This document shows, piece by piece, positions 2,095-35,379 of a stretch of 42,911 nucleotides of DNA. The stretch is from the NCBI GenBank assembly GCA_001782235.1, contig MFOC01000002.1, positions 1-42,911 of the forward strand, in the 5' to 3' direction. The notes under the pieces are model-generated. The model was not told the origin of the DNA. It saw nothing but the letters and a program-made list of their open reading frames with translations, and did not search any database. Origin of the DNA: Candidatus Levybacteria bacterium RIFCSPHIGHO2_02_FULL_40_18 (GTDB taxonomy: Bacteria; Patescibacteriota; Microgenomatia; Levybacterales; GWA1-39-11). How positions within the stretch are numbered: the stretch's first letter is position 1; each line of letters starts with the position of its first letter. Made by a program: the position numbers and the translations under genes.

Positions 2095-2209
2095 TAGAAA
2101 ATAGTTATTAGAAAATAGAAATTAGTAATAGAAAATGGAGGATAGAAAATAGTTGAATATAATTTGGTCCAATTTCCAATGTCTAATTTCCATTACTATT
2201 TTCTAATCT
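2095..2209. repeat. Inverted pair of 7-bp tandem arrays between pyrG and rplS
   Basis: From 2095 to 2157 the DNA runs in 7-bp steps of the type tagaaaa/tagaaat. From 2168 to 2209 it runs in steps of tccaatt/tctaatt, roughly the reverse complement of the first set. The two halves could fold into a long AT-rich hairpin. They fill nearly all of the 189-bp spacer 2036-2224 downstream of pyrG, where they could serve as a weak terminator. No other feature is visible in this spacer. Confidence 0.65.
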
Positions 2210-8813: not shown

Positions 8814-10211
8814 ATGAATATTTTTCTTATCCTCCTTGGTAAGGTCGTTTTCTTTCTATCCCGAACATTAAGTCTAGGTTCGGGGTCTACGTGGCCGGGG
8901 CACATAGTAATGGAGATAAAGCCGAAATTTGTTCGGCAAATTTTGAAAAGTAATCCGAATCTTAAGGTTGTTTTGGTCGCGGGAACCAATGGAAAAACTA
9001 CTATGTCTTTGATGCTTCAGAAAATTCTTGAGCAGGGTGGAATTCGCGTGTTTCGAAATGAGGCTGGCGCTAATCTTTTGAATGGAATAGCCTCAAGTAT
9101 AATAAGAAATACAAATTTAACCGGACGGTTAAGTTTTGATGTGGCAATTTTTGAGGTTGATGAAAGAAACGTTGCGCTCGCATTACAAGAAATGTCAGTT
9201 GTCAGTGGTCAGCCCGCCCCGCTTCGCGGAGCGAGGCCGGGGTTGTCAGTTGTATTACTTAATATTTTCCGCGACCAACTTGACCGCTATGGAGAAGTTA
9301 ATAAAGTTCTTTCCGATTGGGAAGAAGCTTTGTCGAGCGTTGATTCGAATACGCTATTGTTCACGAATGGGGATGATCCTGCTCTATCATTATTAACTCA
9401 AAACACAAAACTAAAAACTTATTACTTTGGGATCGATGAAAAACTCATGATCAAAGATTCAACTGGACATGACGTAGATTTTATTTATTGCCCCAATTGC
9501 CAAACAAAACTTGACTATAGAAAAGTATCTTACTCACACATGGGAAAATTTAAATGCCCAAGCTGCGGTTTCACAAACCCTAAAACCGAAACCTTTTCTA
9601 CTCTACCCTCTCCTCTTTTGGGAAATTACAATATTTACAACATCAATGCGGCTGCACTTGCCGGAGACAAGGGATTCGGCATCTCGGAGGACAAAATTCG
9701 AACGGCGTTGACAGATTTCAAACCTGCGTTCGGCCGCCAGGAGGAAATTACCTACAAGGGCAGAAAAATTTTGATGCTGCTTTCAAAAAACCCCGCCGGA
9801 TTTAATCAGTCTATCGACGCAATCGTAAACTTCCACCCTCGAGGTGGAAAGGATCATACACCTCGGGGGTGTACGATATTGTTGGTTTTAAATGATCGGA
9901 TTCCAGACGGACGGGATGTTTCATGGATCTGGGACGTGGACTTTGAGAATTTGCCAAAAGATTCGAAGATATTTATTTCCGGCGACCGCGCCTACGACAT
10001 GGCACTCCGAATAAAGTACCTTGATTCAACTCAAAACTCCAAACTCAAAACTCAAAACTTCAACTCAAATGTTCAAATCTTCGAAAATTTAAAAGATGCA
10101 ATTGAAATTGCGACGCGCGAAACTTCGACAAACGAAACGCTTTTTATACTACCCACCTATTCTGCCATGCTAGAAGCTCGTAAAATCCTAACAGGAAGGA
10201 GCATTCTGTGA
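8814..10211 (+). CDS. murT: Lipid II isoglutaminyl synthase, MurT subunit
   Basis: Mur-ligase-like subunit that, with GatD, amidates the D-Glu of lipid II. It shows the ATP loop GTNGKTT, the FEVDER segment, NIFRDQLDRYGE, a four-cysteine zinc ribbon (YCPNCQTK...FKCPSCGF), NPAGFNQSI and the C-terminal LNDRIPDGRDVSWIWDVDFE of the MurT C-terminal domain. Start 8814 is chosen from promoter position; 8805 is the alternative (468 residues). The protein carries four low-complexity inserts: two 7-bp arrays (9397-9418, 10029-10077) and two hairpin insertions (9195-9250, 9831-9873). The conserved motifs on either side are intact. It overlaps gatD by 4 bp. Confidence 0.93.
   Translation: MNIFLILLGKVVFFLSRTLSLGSGSTWPGHIVMEIKPKFVRQILKSNPNLKVVLVAGTNGKTTMSLMLQKILEQGGIRVFRNEAGANLLNGIASSIIRNTNLTGRLSFDVAIFEVDERNVALALQEMSVVSGQPAPLRGARPGLSVVLLNIFRDQLDRYGEVNKVLSDWEEALSSVDSNTLLFTNGDDPALSLLTQNTKLKTYYFGIDEKLMIKDSTGHDVDFIYCPNCQTKLDYRKVSYSHMGKFKCPSCGFTNPKTETFSTLPSPLLGNYNIYNINAAALAGDKGFGISEDKIRTALTDFKPAFGRQEEITYKGRKILMLLSKNPAGFNQSIDAIVNFHPRGGKDHTPRGCTILLVLNDRIPDGRDVSWIWDVDFENLPKDSKIFISGDRAYDMALRIKYLDSTQNSKLKTQNFNSNVQIFENLKDAIEIATRETSTNETLFILPTYSAMLEARKILTGRSIL
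9195..9250. repeat. GC-rich palindromic insertion inside murT
   Basis: Repeated gtcag/gtcagt blocks flank a GC-rich palindromic core (CCGC TTC GCGG within CCCC...GGGG). It encodes roughly SGQPAPLRGARPG just before the conserved NIFRDQLDRYGE, where other MurT proteins have only a short turn. The frame is kept. Confidence 0.65.
9397..9418. repeat. 7-bp array in murT (ctcaaaa type)
   Basis: Three degenerate units (ctcaaaa, cacaaaa, ctaaaaa) translated as part of LTQNTKLKTY, next to the zinc ribbon. Confidence 0.5.
9831..9873. repeat. Paired hairpin insertion inside murT
   Basis: Two adjacent perfect hairpins: 9831-9849 (TTCCACC/GGTGGAA, loop ctcga) and 9857-9873 (TACACC/GGTGTA, loop tcggg). 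Translated as FHPRGGKDHTPRGC between the conserved NPAGFNQSI and LNDRIPDGRD. Confidence 0.75.
10029..10077. repeat. 7-bp array in murT (actcaaa type), seven units
   Basis: Seven units in strict 7-bp steps, three of them exactly actcaaa, the rest one or a few changes away. Encodes roughly TQNSKLKTQNFNSN. Confidence 0.75.
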
Positions 10212-10981
10212 CAGAGAGCCAAAAGCCAAAAGCCAAAAGCCACGAGCTAACTATTGGCTGGCTATACCCAGATCTTATGAGTACTTATGGAGACCGGGGA
10301 AATATTATTGTGCTTCAAAAACGCGCCGAATGGCGCGGTTTCAATGCAAAAATCGAACCCATCTCCCTTAATACTTCATACTTAATACTTAATACTTGCG
10401 ACTTACTCTTCATGGGCGGTGCCCAAGATACACAGCAAGAAATTGTTAATAAAGACCTCCTTGATAAGAAGGGGGAAGTCTTGACCGAACAAATCGAAAA
10501 AGGAATTCCCGGTCTATATATCTGTGGCGCATACCAATTCTTAGGAAAGTACTATAAAACTGCTGATAATAAAAATCTCGCGGGACTTGGCGTTTTCAAA
10601 ATGATTACCGAAAACCCGGGAGAAAAATATGAAAGATTAATCGGAAACGTTATTGTTGAACCAAAAATTGAGGGACTGACACAACCTTTAATCGGTTTTG
10701 AGAATCATGGTGGGCGAACATACCTTGAATACAAAAATGAAAGACTCGGTAACGTCGTCAAAGGTTTTGGTAACAATGGGAAAGACGGAAGCGAAGGAAT
10801 AGTTTATAAAAATTCTTTCGGAACTTATCTCCACGGCCCAATCCTGCCCAAAAACCCCCAACTCGCAGATCTACTGCTGACTTTAGCGCTTGAGAAGAAA
10901 TATGGAGAAAAATTCCATCTTGAACCTCTGAACGATTCAATCGAGCAAAAAGCCCGCGAGGCAATTATTAAAAGACTCTGA
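10208..10981 (+). CDS. gatD: Lipid II isoglutaminyl synthase, glutamine amidotransferase subunit GatD
   Basis: Class I glutaminase of the CobB/CobQ type that feeds ammonia to MurT. Motifs: LYPDLMSTYGDRGN at the start of the fold, LLFMGGAQDTQQ, the nucleophile elbow YICGAYQFLG (Cys), ENHGGRTYLE, and YLHGPILPKNP with the catalytic His. The length of 257 is usual. The start is GTG, overlapping the murT stop, with GGAAGGAG 5 bp upstream. Two 7-bp arrays are translated: agccaaa units at the N-terminus (residues 4-13, 10217-10244) and ttaatac units at 10368-10398 (about residues 54-64). In the second, units that would bring a TAA into frame differ. Confidence 0.93.
   Translation: MTESQKPKAKSHELTIGWLYPDLMSTYGDRGNIIVLQKRAEWRGFNAKIEPISLNTSYLILNTCDLLFMGGAQDTQQEIVNKDLLDKKGEVLTEQIEKGIPGLYICGAYQFLGKYYKTADNKNLAGLGVFKMITENPGEKYERLIGNVIVEPKIEGLTQPLIGFENHGGRTYLEYKNERLGNVVKGFGNNGKDGSEGIVYKNSFGTYLHGPILPKNPQLADLLLTLALEKKYGEKFHLEPLNDSIEQKAREAIIKRL
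10217..10244. repeat. 7-bp array at the gatD N-terminus (agccaaa type)
   Basis: Three exact agccaaa units followed by agccacg, encoding QKPKAKS right after the start codon, where most GatD proteins have no counterpart. Confidence 0.8.
10368..10398. repeat. 7-bp array in gatD (ttaatac type)
   Basis: Units 1, 3 and 4 are exact ttaatac; unit 2 is ttcatac and unit 5 is ttgcgac. In this frame an exact unit at position 2 or 5 would place TAA in frame. Encodes LNTSYLILNTC. Confidence 0.8.
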
Positions 10982-12853: not shown

Positions 12854-14219
12854 ACCCGTGATCGGCCTGGAGACACATATTGAGCTTAAGACTAAATCGA
12901 AAATGTTTTGTGCGTGTTCGGCAGATTATTCCGGCCGCGAACCGAACACGCACGTCTGCCCTGTCTGTTTAGGGCTACCCGGCACTCTTCCTATTCCTAA
13001 CAAAACAGCTATCGAATGGTGTATAAAAATTGCGTTATCGCTAAATTGCAACGTCTCAAACATTTCAAAATTCGACCGAAAGAATTACTTCTATCCAGAC
13101 CTACCAAAGGGCTACCAAATCTCCCAATACGACGAGCCGTTTGGGCTCGCAGGATGGATTCAATTGAAAGATAAGCGAATCAGGATTCGCCGCGTTCACA
13201 TGGAGGAAGACACTGCCAAATTGACACATCAATTTGGAACTCAAAACTCAAAACTCAAAACTCAAAACTTTAGCTTGATAGATTTTAATCGCTCCGGAGT
13301 TCCGTTAGTTGAAATTGTGACTGAACCGGATTTTGAAAATGCAGGAGAAGTAACGGAGTATCTTCAGAAATTGCAGCAGATTGTTCGTTATCTTGATGTT
13401 TCAAATGCAGACATGGAGAAAGGCGATATGCGCTTGGAACCAAACATTAGTTTGGCGGTTAGCGAGCAGGGGTTAGCAGTTGGTAATAAAAGCCAACAGC
13501 CAAAAGCCAAGAGCCAACTGCCACCATATAAGGTGGAGGTTAAAAATATTAATTCGTTTCGATTTGTGGCGAAAGCGATTGAGGAAGAGATTGTTCGCCA
13601 ATCGGAAATTCTTGATAAAGGAGAAACTCCTCTACAGGAAACTCGAGGTTGGGATGAAAATAAAAATACAACAGTATCCCAGCGTACAAAAGAGGAAGCT
13701 CATGATTATAGATATTTTCCGGAGCCAGACATACCACCAATCCGCTTCGCGGATTCTCAAATTTCAAATATCAAATCTCAAATCCCAGAACTACCAGACT
13801 CAAAAAGAGAAAGATTTGTTCGAGAGTACGCAATTCCTGTGTATGACGCAGAGATTCTTGTCCGGGAACGCTCGGACGCGGACTATTTCGAGCAGACAGT
13901 CAAAGACGGAAAAAAACATAATTTAACACCAAAGCAGGTAGCAAATTACATTATTAATAAGAAACCAAACATAGAAAAAACAGTTCCAGCAGAGCTCGTG
14001 GAATTGATTTTGGTAACGCAAGAAACAAAAGAACTAGACAAAGAAGAACTTGAGCACGCGATAGAACTAGTTTTAGAAGAAAACCCAAAGGCCGTTGAAG
14101 ATTACAAAAAGGGGAAAACCCAAGTTTTAGGCTTTTTAATAGGTAAAGTCCGAACTCTCTTACCGCCTAATTCCTCATCAGAAGGCATACGCGAACTCAT
14201 TGAACAAAGCCTCAAATAA
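12843..14219 (+). CDS. gatB: Asp/Glu-tRNA amidotransferase subunit B
   Basis: The tRNA-binding subunit that phosphorylates and amidates the misacylated aminoacyl-tRNA. Motifs: GLETHIEL, the zinc cysteines FCAC and CPVCLGLPG, FDRKNYFYPDLPKGYQISQYD, EEDTAKL, LIDFNRSGVPLVEIVTEPD, EVKNINSF and HDYRYFPEPDIPP. The C-terminal YqeY-like domain spans about 350-458. The start is GTG with AGGAG upstream, inside the gatA end. Three inserted low-complexity stretches are translated: residues about 133-142 (TQNSKLKTQN), 206-228 (GLAVGNKSQQPKAKS) and 300-315 (SQISNIKSQI); each comes from a 7-bp array. Conserved motifs flank every insert. Confidence 0.95.
   Translation: MKYKPVIGLETHIELKTKSKMFCACSADYSGREPNTHVCPVCLGLPGTLPIPNKTAIEWCIKIALSLNCNVSNISKFDRKNYFYPDLPKGYQISQYDEPFGLAGWIQLKDKRIRIRRVHMEEDTAKLTHQFGTQNSKLKTQNFSLIDFNRSGVPLVEIVTEPDFENAGEVTEYLQKLQQIVRYLDVSNADMEKGDMRLEPNISLAVSEQGLAVGNKSQQPKAKSQLPPYKVEVKNINSFRFVAKAIEEEIVRQSEILDKGETPLQETRGWDENKNTTVSQRTKEEAHDYRYFPEPDIPPIRFADSQISNIKSQIPELPDSKRERFVREYAIPVYDAEILVRERSDADYFEQTVKDGKKHNLTPKQVANYIINKKPNIEKTVPAELVELILVTQETKELDKEELEHAIELVLEENPKAVEDYKKGKTQVLGFLIGKVRTLLPPNSSSEGIRELIEQSLK
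13239..13269. repeat. 7-bp array in gatB (actcaaa type), four exact units
   Basis: Four exact actcaaa units and a partial one, between the conserved AKLTH and LIDFNRSG. Confidence 0.85.
13457..13525. repeat. 7-bp array in gatB (ggttagc / gccaaaa types, inverted halves)
   Basis: About ten consecutive 7-bp steps: the left half is of the ggttagc/agttggt type and the right half gccaaca, gccaaaa, gccaaga, gccaact. The halves are roughly inverted. It encodes about 23 residues just before EVKNINSF. The same unit types occur between atpA and atpG. Confidence 0.75.
13740..13786. repeat. Hairpin plus 7-bp array in gatB (tctcaaa type)
   Basis: A perfect hairpin ATCCGC TTC GCGGAT (13740-13754) runs straight into four 7-bp units of the tctcaaa/tttcaaa type. 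Encodes IRFADSQISNIKSQI. Confidence 0.7.
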
Positions 14220-33337: not shown

Positions 33338-34276
33338 TTATATTCTCATAAATCTTTTTAAAAAGCCTAATGTCATGCCACAAATCACTGCCATATCTGA
33401 AGTTATCTGAAGGGCGGGAAGATATATAAACGCTTTTGGGTGTTTTACGTATTTATAATTTTTCCAGACACTCCATATCAGATAAATAGATAATAGATAA
33501 TAGATAATAGATAATAGGAGAGCGGATTTAGTCGTGAAGTAAAAGATAACTAGAATCAGTCCAAAAAAATATCTTGCGAACAGTAGTGGTGTTTGAGGGC
33601 GGATATATAAGGCTTGTCCGTCACCGATTGCATAATTCAGAAACTGTTTTGTAGCTTGGAAAATGTTTTTCCTCTGAGGCCAGTAGACAATCGCTTTTTT
33701 CGCAAATTGGAATTTAAATCCTGCTTTCTTTAATTTTTTGTCGAACACTAAATCCTCACAAGTATTAAGGTTCTCAGGATACCCCCTAACTTTTTTGAAT
33801 GCCTCTCTTCGAAATGCAACTGAACGTGAGGATGGTAAAAAATTTTTAGGGTCCACCTTATCCGGCATAACGCAAGTGTACGTTGCCAGACATTCTTCGA
33901 AAATCGAACCTGTCCTCGGTTTGTAAAACCCTGCTACAACATCAACATCTTTGTTCTCAAAGGGTTTGGTGATATTTTTGAGCCAATTTTTATCTAGAAT
34001 ACACCCTGCATCTGAAACTGCAATAATATCTCCACTCGAATTTTTAATCGCAATGTTTCTCCCCGCAGACCTATTCCCTTTTTTTACAATTACCCGGGTC
34101 TTAATTCGTTTCATACTTGATACATAATACTTAATACTTGATACTGTAGCATCTTTCGATCCGGCATCCACGATAATAAGTTCGTCTGGAGATACAGTCT
34201 GTTTAGATACTGATTCAAGAAAAAAACCGATAGCATTTTCTTCGTTTAGAACTGTTGTAATAAGCGATATTTTCAT
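33338..34276 (-). CDS. Glycosyltransferase family 2 with membrane tail
   Basis: GT-A domain (about 1-215): ISLITTVLNEENAIGFFLESV, ELIIVDAGSKDAT, AGRNIAI, SDAGCIL in place of the usual DxD, and CEDLVFDKKL. Two or three C-terminal hydrophobic segments (about 225-300) suggest a membrane anchor. The ATG at 34276 forms an ATGA overlap with the upstream gene; the TTG at 34285 is rejected. Two 7-bp arrays are translated: agtatta type (34114-34148, VSSIKYYVSSMK) and tctatta type (33481-33517, SIIYYLLSIYL), the latter lying within a membrane segment. Confidence 0.88.
   Translation of the reverse strand: MKISLITTVLNEENAIGFFLESVSKQTVSPDELIIVDAGSKDATVSSIKYYVSSMKRIKTRVIVKKGNRSAGRNIAIKNSSGDIIAVSDAGCILDKNWLKNITKPFENKDVDVVAGFYKPRTGSIFEECLATYTCVMPDKVDPKNFLPSSRSVAFRREAFKKVRGYPENLNTCEDLVFDKKLKKAGFKFQFAKKAIVYWPQRKNIFQATKQFLNYAIGDGQALYIRPQTPLLFARYFFGLILVIFYFTTKSALLLSIIYYLLSIYLIWSVWKNYKYVKHPKAFIYLPALQITSDMAVICGMTLGFLKRFMRI
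33481..33517. repeat. 7-bp array in the GT2 gene (gataata on plus strand)
   Basis: Four exact gataata units plus two related ones. On the coding strand the unit tctatta reads SIIYYLL, which is hydrophobic and forms part of a membrane segment. Confidence 0.8.
34114..34148. repeat. 7-bp array in the GT2 gene (agtatta type)
   Basis: Five units in 7-bp steps on the coding strand: agtatca, agtatta, agtatta, tgtatca, agtatga. The a-to-t change at the start of unit four falls on the base that would otherwise complete a TAA stop. Confidence 0.75.
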
Positions 34277-35379
34277 AATTTCCAAAGCTTAAGATAAATG
34301 TCCGCCACCCTACTCCATGTTTGCTTCCTAGCCCAAAAGTAGGCAGGTTTATTATAGGGTACCTTACCACCCGATATTGAGGAAACTACTTGACTAGCTA
34401 ACGTCTCCGAATCTCCAGCAACCGATACGTATTTTGCAAAGGGAGAGAGAGTCAGATAGTCTCTTTTGAGTTCGTTTTGATACACGCTGAACACTTTTTT
34501 AGATCGGAGAAAAGCCTCAAGAATCGAAAGATACGAAGACGCGAATATAAAATCTGCTCGATCAATATATTTATTCAGATTATTGACGAATCCATGTACA
34601 TTGCCGTATCTTCCAAACTGTCTTCTGTAATTACCGTCGCCGCATACGGTTAACTTATAGGATATTCCTCTGTTTTTGAGTTTTCTCAGCGCTTCAAGGT
34701 AAATTTTTACCCCATTATCCTCCTCAAGCCTTCCCAACAACAAGATATTCATCGATTTACGATTTTTTCCGAAATTTTTAACTTTTGACTTTAAACTTTG
34801 AACTGTTGAGACTCCTCCATATGTTATAAAGTCCGATTTTGTTCCATACCACTTCTCTATATATTTTCCGATGCAGATATTTCTCCGCGAAAGTTTTTCA
34901 GAAATTTTTCTTACAAATTTTGCCGTTGCTGTTGGCGGAAATTTTGTTTCATATCCATGAAAGGTCGTAAAAACTTTTTTGTTTGGAAATAAAAATCGAA
35001 AAGGCAAATACCAAAAGAAAACATCATGACAATGTACGATGTCAGAATTCCGAATGATCCCAAGCATCCCTAACACTCCGAGCCAAATTCGAAATTTCTT
35101 AAACCAATTTTCTGCTCCAAAATTTAACCTAATTACATTCAATTTTCTTGTGTCAATATTGCCTATTTGGCTTGATTTGACGGGCCGTATTAAGTTGATA
35201 TCTTGCGTATCACTTTGATCTATTGAGTGACAATTTCTTGATCCGCCATGGGCTGAGCTCTCTGTAATAATCGTTACTTTATGTCCCCGCTTTATTAACT
35301 CTTTTGAGACTTCAAAAACATGCTTTTCTACCCCGCCAATATCAGGATGAAATCTTCTTGTTAAAAATAAAATCCTCAT
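34273..35379 (-). CDS. Glycosyltransferase family 4
   Basis: GT-B enzyme, 368 residues. The N-terminal domain begins ILFLTRRFHPDIGGVEKHVFEVSKELIKRGHKVTIIT; the C-terminal donor domain has ILLLGRLEEDNGVKIYLEAL, and the usual acidic EX7E region is reduced to SSYLSILEAFLRSKKVFS. It is the first gene of the nine-gene glycan operon. A 7-bp array (34776-34806, gttcaaa/gtcaaaa type) is translated as VQSLKSKVKNF in the linker between the two domains. The start lies 8 bp after tRNA-Val, so the operon may be transcribed through the tRNA or from a promoter inside it. Confidence 0.88.
   Translation of the reverse strand: MRILFLTRRFHPDIGGVEKHVFEVSKELIKRGHKVTIITESSAHGGSRNCHSIDQSDTQDINLIRPVKSSQIGNIDTRKLNVIRLNFGAENWFKKFRIWLGVLGMLGIIRNSDIVHCHDVFFWYLPFRFLFPNKKVFTTFHGYETKFPPTATAKFVRKISEKLSRRNICIGKYIEKWYGTKSDFITYGGVSTVQSLKSKVKNFGKNRKSMNILLLGRLEEDNGVKIYLEALRKLKNRGISYKLTVCGDGNYRRQFGRYGNVHGFVNNLNKYIDRADFIFASSYLSILEAFLRSKKVFSVYQNELKRDYLTLSPFAKYVSVAGDSETLASQVVSSISGGKVPYNKPAYFWARKQTWSRVADIYLKLWKL
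34776..34806. repeat. 7-bp array in the GT4 gene (gttcaaa type)
   Basis: Four degenerate units (gttcaaa, gtttaaa, gtcaaaa, gttaaaa on the coding strand), translated in the inter-domain linker. Confidence 0.6.

Follow-up and report, generated by a model that had tools for sequence, protein, structure and literature searches.

The gatD gene and its seven-base array

The locus raises the question of how a conserved enzyme gene can contain a tandem array of a heptamer, TTAATAC, that should bring stop codons into frame. TAA is found on both strands of TTAATAC, and every reading frame through such an array therefore meets a stop at each third unit. The window, i.e. the whole stretch of DNA analyzed, comprises 42,911 nucleotides of contig MFOC01000002.1 from Candidatus Levybacteria bacterium RIFCSPHIGHO2_02_FULL_40_18. 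The relevant features are:

10208..10981, + strand: gatD, 257 aa, with a GTG start overlapping the murT stop (open reading frame, Pfam, PDB match)
10368..10395, + strand: 7-bp array TTAATAC TTCATAC TTAATAC TTAATAC, encoding LNTSYLILNT
10375..10381, + strand: stop-phase unit 2, TTCATAC, with TCA where the consensus would give TAA
10396..10402, + strand: "unit 5", TTGCGAC, host codons Cys-Asp and no repeat unit (ortholog comparison, S. aureus GatD)

The gatD product is the glutamine amidotransferase subunit of lipid II isoglutaminyl synthase (MurT/GatD). As expected of GatD, it has a GATase_3 domain (9e-34, Pfam), a cysteine and a histidine (C106 and H209) that are invariant in 30 orthologs, and an adjoining murT gene, recognized by its Pfam match directly upstream. 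The best PDB match was S. aureus GatD (5N9M/6GS2, E = 4e-55), and the named relatives among the protein matches belonged to Levyibacteriota, Roizmanbacteria and other Microgenomates. In the AlphaFold model, the array segment is predicted to be an ordered loop followed by a short helix (residues 58–63) with a pLDDT of about 96, and residues 1–8 have a pLDDT <50. In one relative (G055:C84:7763-7776) a TTAATAC array is found elsewhere in gatD, beside a variable loop near residue 155, and the gatD match of another (G052:C17:191580-192014) holds one apparent in-frame TAA.

An earlier, sequence-only reading described five units in gatD, of which units 2 and 5 had both lost a would-be in-frame TAA. 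Units 1, 3 and 4 (10368-10374, 10382-10388 and 10389-10395) are indeed exact copies and unit 2 is TTCATAC. The codons across the array run CTT AAT ACT TCA TAC TTA ATA CTT AAT ACT TGC GAC, and an exact TTAATAC in place of unit 2 would give an in-frame TAA at 10376-10378; the array thus remains translatable because its sole stop-phase copy departs from the consensus. "Unit 5" did not hold up as a second stop-avoiding unit. TTGCGAC resembles TTAATAC at only 4/7 bases and encodes Cys-Asp, a pair common in GatD orthologs, which rules it out as a repeat copy that lost its TAA and identifies it as host sequence edging the array. Cys-Asp was found at this place in 17/30 orthologs and either Cys or Asp in all 30; S. 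aureus GatD also has Cys-Asp (...FDECDIFFIGGG...), and G004, from another genus, reads TGC GAT. One unit (unit 2), instead of two, therefore carries the claim of stop avoidance in gatD.

The same reading spoke of an expanding array, of which we found no sign: the array segment is 16 codons long in 30/30 orthologs. The array is therefore an in-place overwrite of codons and no growing insertion. This fixed length, together with the presence of only two adjacent exact units, also speaks against the array being a phase-variable contingency locus.

Period-7 arrays in the window, the genome and its relatives

When searched with at most two mismatches, TTAATACTTAATAC gave 7 matches in the window, compared to 0.62 expected. 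The gatD array thus consists of head-to-tail 7-bp copies beyond chance, as in a heptanucleotide long simple sequence repeat (LSSR). Further heptamer arrays were found in the window, one of them also in gatD, where it encodes the N-terminal tail:

10028..10063, + strand: AACTCAA-type array in murT, in the orientation without stops
10214..10247, + strand: AGCCAAA array, the second in gatD, with no stops on either strand
13236..13272, + strand: AACTCAA-type array in gatB, in the orientation without stops
13488..13518, + strand: AGCCAAA-type array in gatB
13755..13787, + strand: TCTCAAA-type array in gatB, with no gaps relative to the G001, G003 and G004 orthologs
34110..34144, - strand (gene 33338-34285): second TTAATAC-family array, reading TTCATAC TTGATAC ATAATAC TTAATAC TTGATAC on the + strand

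The minus-strand reading of the last array is VSSIKYYVSSMK. Among its four altered units, ATAATAC alone falls at a stop phase; the other three occupy harmless phases.

In 400 kb of this genome (33% G+C), scanned for unit lengths of 4–24, periods 7, 14 and 21 stood out with 30, 34 and 24 runs, respectively. A Markov control had none at these periods, and no other period in the genome exceeded 7 runs. Period-7 runs with at least 14 matches numbered 10, and 0 in the control. Using a definition of 12/14 matches at lag 7, about 100 arrays of many heptamers were found in 443 kb of this genome, in many unrelated genes, and 95 of the 231 arrays sampled overall were within long open frames. The density was 13.5–23 arrays per 100 kb in this genome (G000), G001, G002 and G004. 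The same-family genome G003 had a single array in the 206 kb sampled (0.5 per 100 kb). Across 147 relatives, TTAATAC pairs were found in 30 and AAAACTC pairs in 51, both with a patchy distribution; AAAACTC reversed gives the same tandem, so the reversed-pattern control is invalid for this heptamer.

Between genes, heptamer arrays had inverted complementary neighbors, with 18 pairs within 120 bp compared to 2.3 expected (400 kb), and such pairs fold into hairpins whose mismatches recur at regular intervals. Examples are located at 2095-2192 of the window and on contig C7 of this genome (e.g. 219382-219448 and 329044-329145). A dispersed sequence, CCAATTTCTAATATCTAATTTCTA (window 2169-2192), often forms one arm of an intergenic array hairpin. 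When up to three mismatches were allowed, this genome had 32 matches to it (0 for the control) and G001 had 12; G003, G004 and G005 had none.

Stop phases in coding and non-coding arrays

The sequence-only reading had also predicted that mismatches in coding heptamer arrays concentrate at would-be stop codons. We compared 95 coding arrays, covering all heptamers, from G000, G001, G002 and G004 with non-coding arrays. Coding status was assigned from open-frame length alone, and the sample comprised 443 kb of the 995 kb genome and parts of four relatives, with one genome per species and sampled stretches of metagenome assemblies. The phase convention was checked by the absence of real in-frame stops. 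Interior would-be in-frame stops were altered in 20/20 cases, a tautology because only open frames were picked. When they lay out of frame, these triplets were altered in 13/56 cases (p = 5e-10). In non-coding arrays the same triplets were altered in 64/193 cases, which does not differ from the 13/56 at harmless phases of coding arrays. The concentration was thus borne out.

For TTAATAC itself, an adjacent exact pair leaves one open frame per strand, in which an exact unit on either side would bring TAA into frame, and both flanking units must therefore be altered in any gene. In 45 TTAATAC arrays of relatives, all within open frames of 150 codons or more, the repeat-like units flanking an exact pair were exact in 0/51 cases and the next-but-one units in 28/41.

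The proposal that this pattern reflects selection for translation, or expansions surviving with compensating changes, was examined with a null in which non-coding arrays were read in six frames and frames with an in-frame stop were dropped, which left 29% of the frames. The filtered non-coding set had 0.41 would-be stops per array (95% 0.30–0.54) and the coding set 0.37 (0.24–0.51), and stop-free, one-strand and two-strand heptamers made up broadly comparable shares of the two sets. A bare no-stop filter is thus enough, and compensating changes are not needed for the stop-phase pattern; the need for either process fell away. Furthermore, 66/95 genic arrays were stop-free in the sense direction, and 61/105 non-coding arrays had stops on both strands.

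The kind of change seen in gatD is also common outside genes. In non-coding TTAATAC arrays, position 3 was the commonest single change (9/15), as in TTCATAC, and TAA was lost in 23/29 altered neighbors. Changes at unit position 2 were found in 20/51 coding stop-phase units of TTAATAC arrays versus 6/29 in the non-coding ones, TAAATAC occurred 8 times at coding stop-phase units versus once in non-coding arrays, and the next units at harmless phases were exact in the above 28/41 coding cases versus 5/12 non-coding. The excess of position-2 changes and TAAATAC, or of exact harmless units, could hint at selection beyond the filter, in numbers that are small. A special 21-bp unit was considered and rejected: identity declines alike at lags 7, 14 and 21 in coding and non-coding arrays, so no such unit is needed.

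Array sites in orthologs

An array was present at the same site in a same-genus ortholog in 15/27 comparisons, usually with a different heptamer; outside the genus this was the case in only 1/17. Tolerant loops alone would not readily account for the co-location, as in three relatives and at variable positions only, 13/35 arrays were co-located compared to 10% at other variable positions. At the gatD site, GTCAATT replaces TTAATAC in G002, and in G004 ATAC still recurs weakly every seven bases, with its register unchanged. In 11 ungapped ortholog pairs, arrays in register agreed at 60% of bases versus 31% when slid, a difference to which protein similarity contributes. That the site persists while the unit turns over is compatible with slippage and concerted change, as might be inferred from these comparisons. 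Coding array sites were gapped in 66/118 ortholog pairs, compared to 13.5% at random positions; arrays at sites other than gatD appear to lengthen genes.

Origin of the stop-free pattern

The gatD array is one of many period-7 arrays, and its pattern is probably explained by a purifying no-stop filter acting on naturally varying units. Arrays would form and turn over by a period-7 process, probably slippage, and their units would vary naturally, most at unit position 3. Within genes, only versions without an in-frame stop would survive, a step that corresponds to the statistical filter above. The survivors would mostly be stop-free heptamers or orientations, alongside a minority, gatD among them, where the unit at the stop phase is a variant by chance. 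In GatD, the array would overwrite codons in a loop and helix, modeled as ordered, of constant length, and the array itself would need no function.

An explanation that we regard as unlikely is that arrays expand in genes and that selected point changes or unit loss then remove the in-frame stops. The 20/20 versus 13/56 contrast and the additional TAAATAC class (8 versus 1) would fit such compensation, but the coding set is matched by filtered non-coding arrays alone, the gatD segment is unchanged in length, and the intermediate would carry an in-frame stop truncating a conserved enzyme. That the array was instead selected as a translated element, with its repeated peptide, or a codon repeat of 21 bp, functional in GatD, seems very improbable. 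The array-encoded Leu61 is nearly invariant among orthologs and the segment appears ordered in the AlphaFold model, yet the peptide at the array site differs within the genus (TSPYSLVVSD in G001; SSQWSIVNCQ in G002, from a different heptamer), and many kinds of array occur across many unrelated genes. Least credible of all is a chance periodicity of an AT-rich, low-complexity stretch: the gatD array has only four units and the genome is AT-rich, but neither the 7 window matches against 0.62 expected nor the 10 strong period-7 runs against 0 in the control agree with this.

Beyond the purifying filter, we tentatively suggest a more general picture, which we consider possible though doubtful as a whole. 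A Levybacteria-type period-7 process may rewrite short stretches in place, with array sites retained from one species of a genus to another as one heptamer gives way to the next, even in ordered and length-constrained parts of conserved enzymes. The alteration of every third unit in TTAATAC arrays would be the mark left by selection acting on what this process produces, and the intergenic arrays of the same process would be the inverted hairpin pairs.

The over-representation of heptamer arrays in bacteria is known but poorly explained. Since 7 cannot be divided by 3, all three frames of the unit are exposed in a coding heptamer array, which so offers a clean natural test of purifying filtering of repeat formation, and this genus supplies many such arrays for which the positions of orthologs are known. 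The near-absence of arrays in G003, against 13.5–23 per 100 kb in G000, G001, G002 and G004, allows the cause to be sought by comparison.

Comparison with known repeat systems

No report of heptamer arrays in Patescibacteria was found in the literature searched. Already known are heptanucleotide arrays as an under-studied class and the stop-limited genic orientation of TAACTGA (PMC4679880). In the bacterial surveys of Mrazek and colleagues, as summarized in PMC4679880 and PMC4692102, heptanucleotide LSSRs are reported to outnumber the other classes in most of the genomes surveyed, and slippage at 7 nt is proposed as their cause. The arrays described here likewise have seven-base tandem units, but comprise many heptamer families in a genome of roughly 1 Mb, lie in long open frames in a large share of cases (95/231), and differ in unit between related species at one site. 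In the TAACTGA direct repeats of marine Beggiatoaceae, stop codons are stated to restrict the genic orientation of arrays (PMC4679880, available text), which is the same orientation rule as found here. TAACTGA is however a single sequence and mostly intergenic, and arrays altered at every third unit are not described in that text.

The heptamer repeats of Xanthomonas and Nostoc are similarly abundant 7-bp tandem units spread over the genome; those are G-rich, quadruplex-forming and mostly intergenic (PMC4692102), whereas the arrays here are AT-rich and in many cases coding. Borg tandem repeats are pervasive and fast-evolving, and are found both within and between genes (PMC9879509), as are the present arrays. 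In Borg ORFs the repeat unit is always divisible by three and the repeats tend to make disordered regions (PMC9879509); the gatD unit of 7 bp is not divisible by three and rotates the reading frame, and the segment it encodes is predicted to be ordered.
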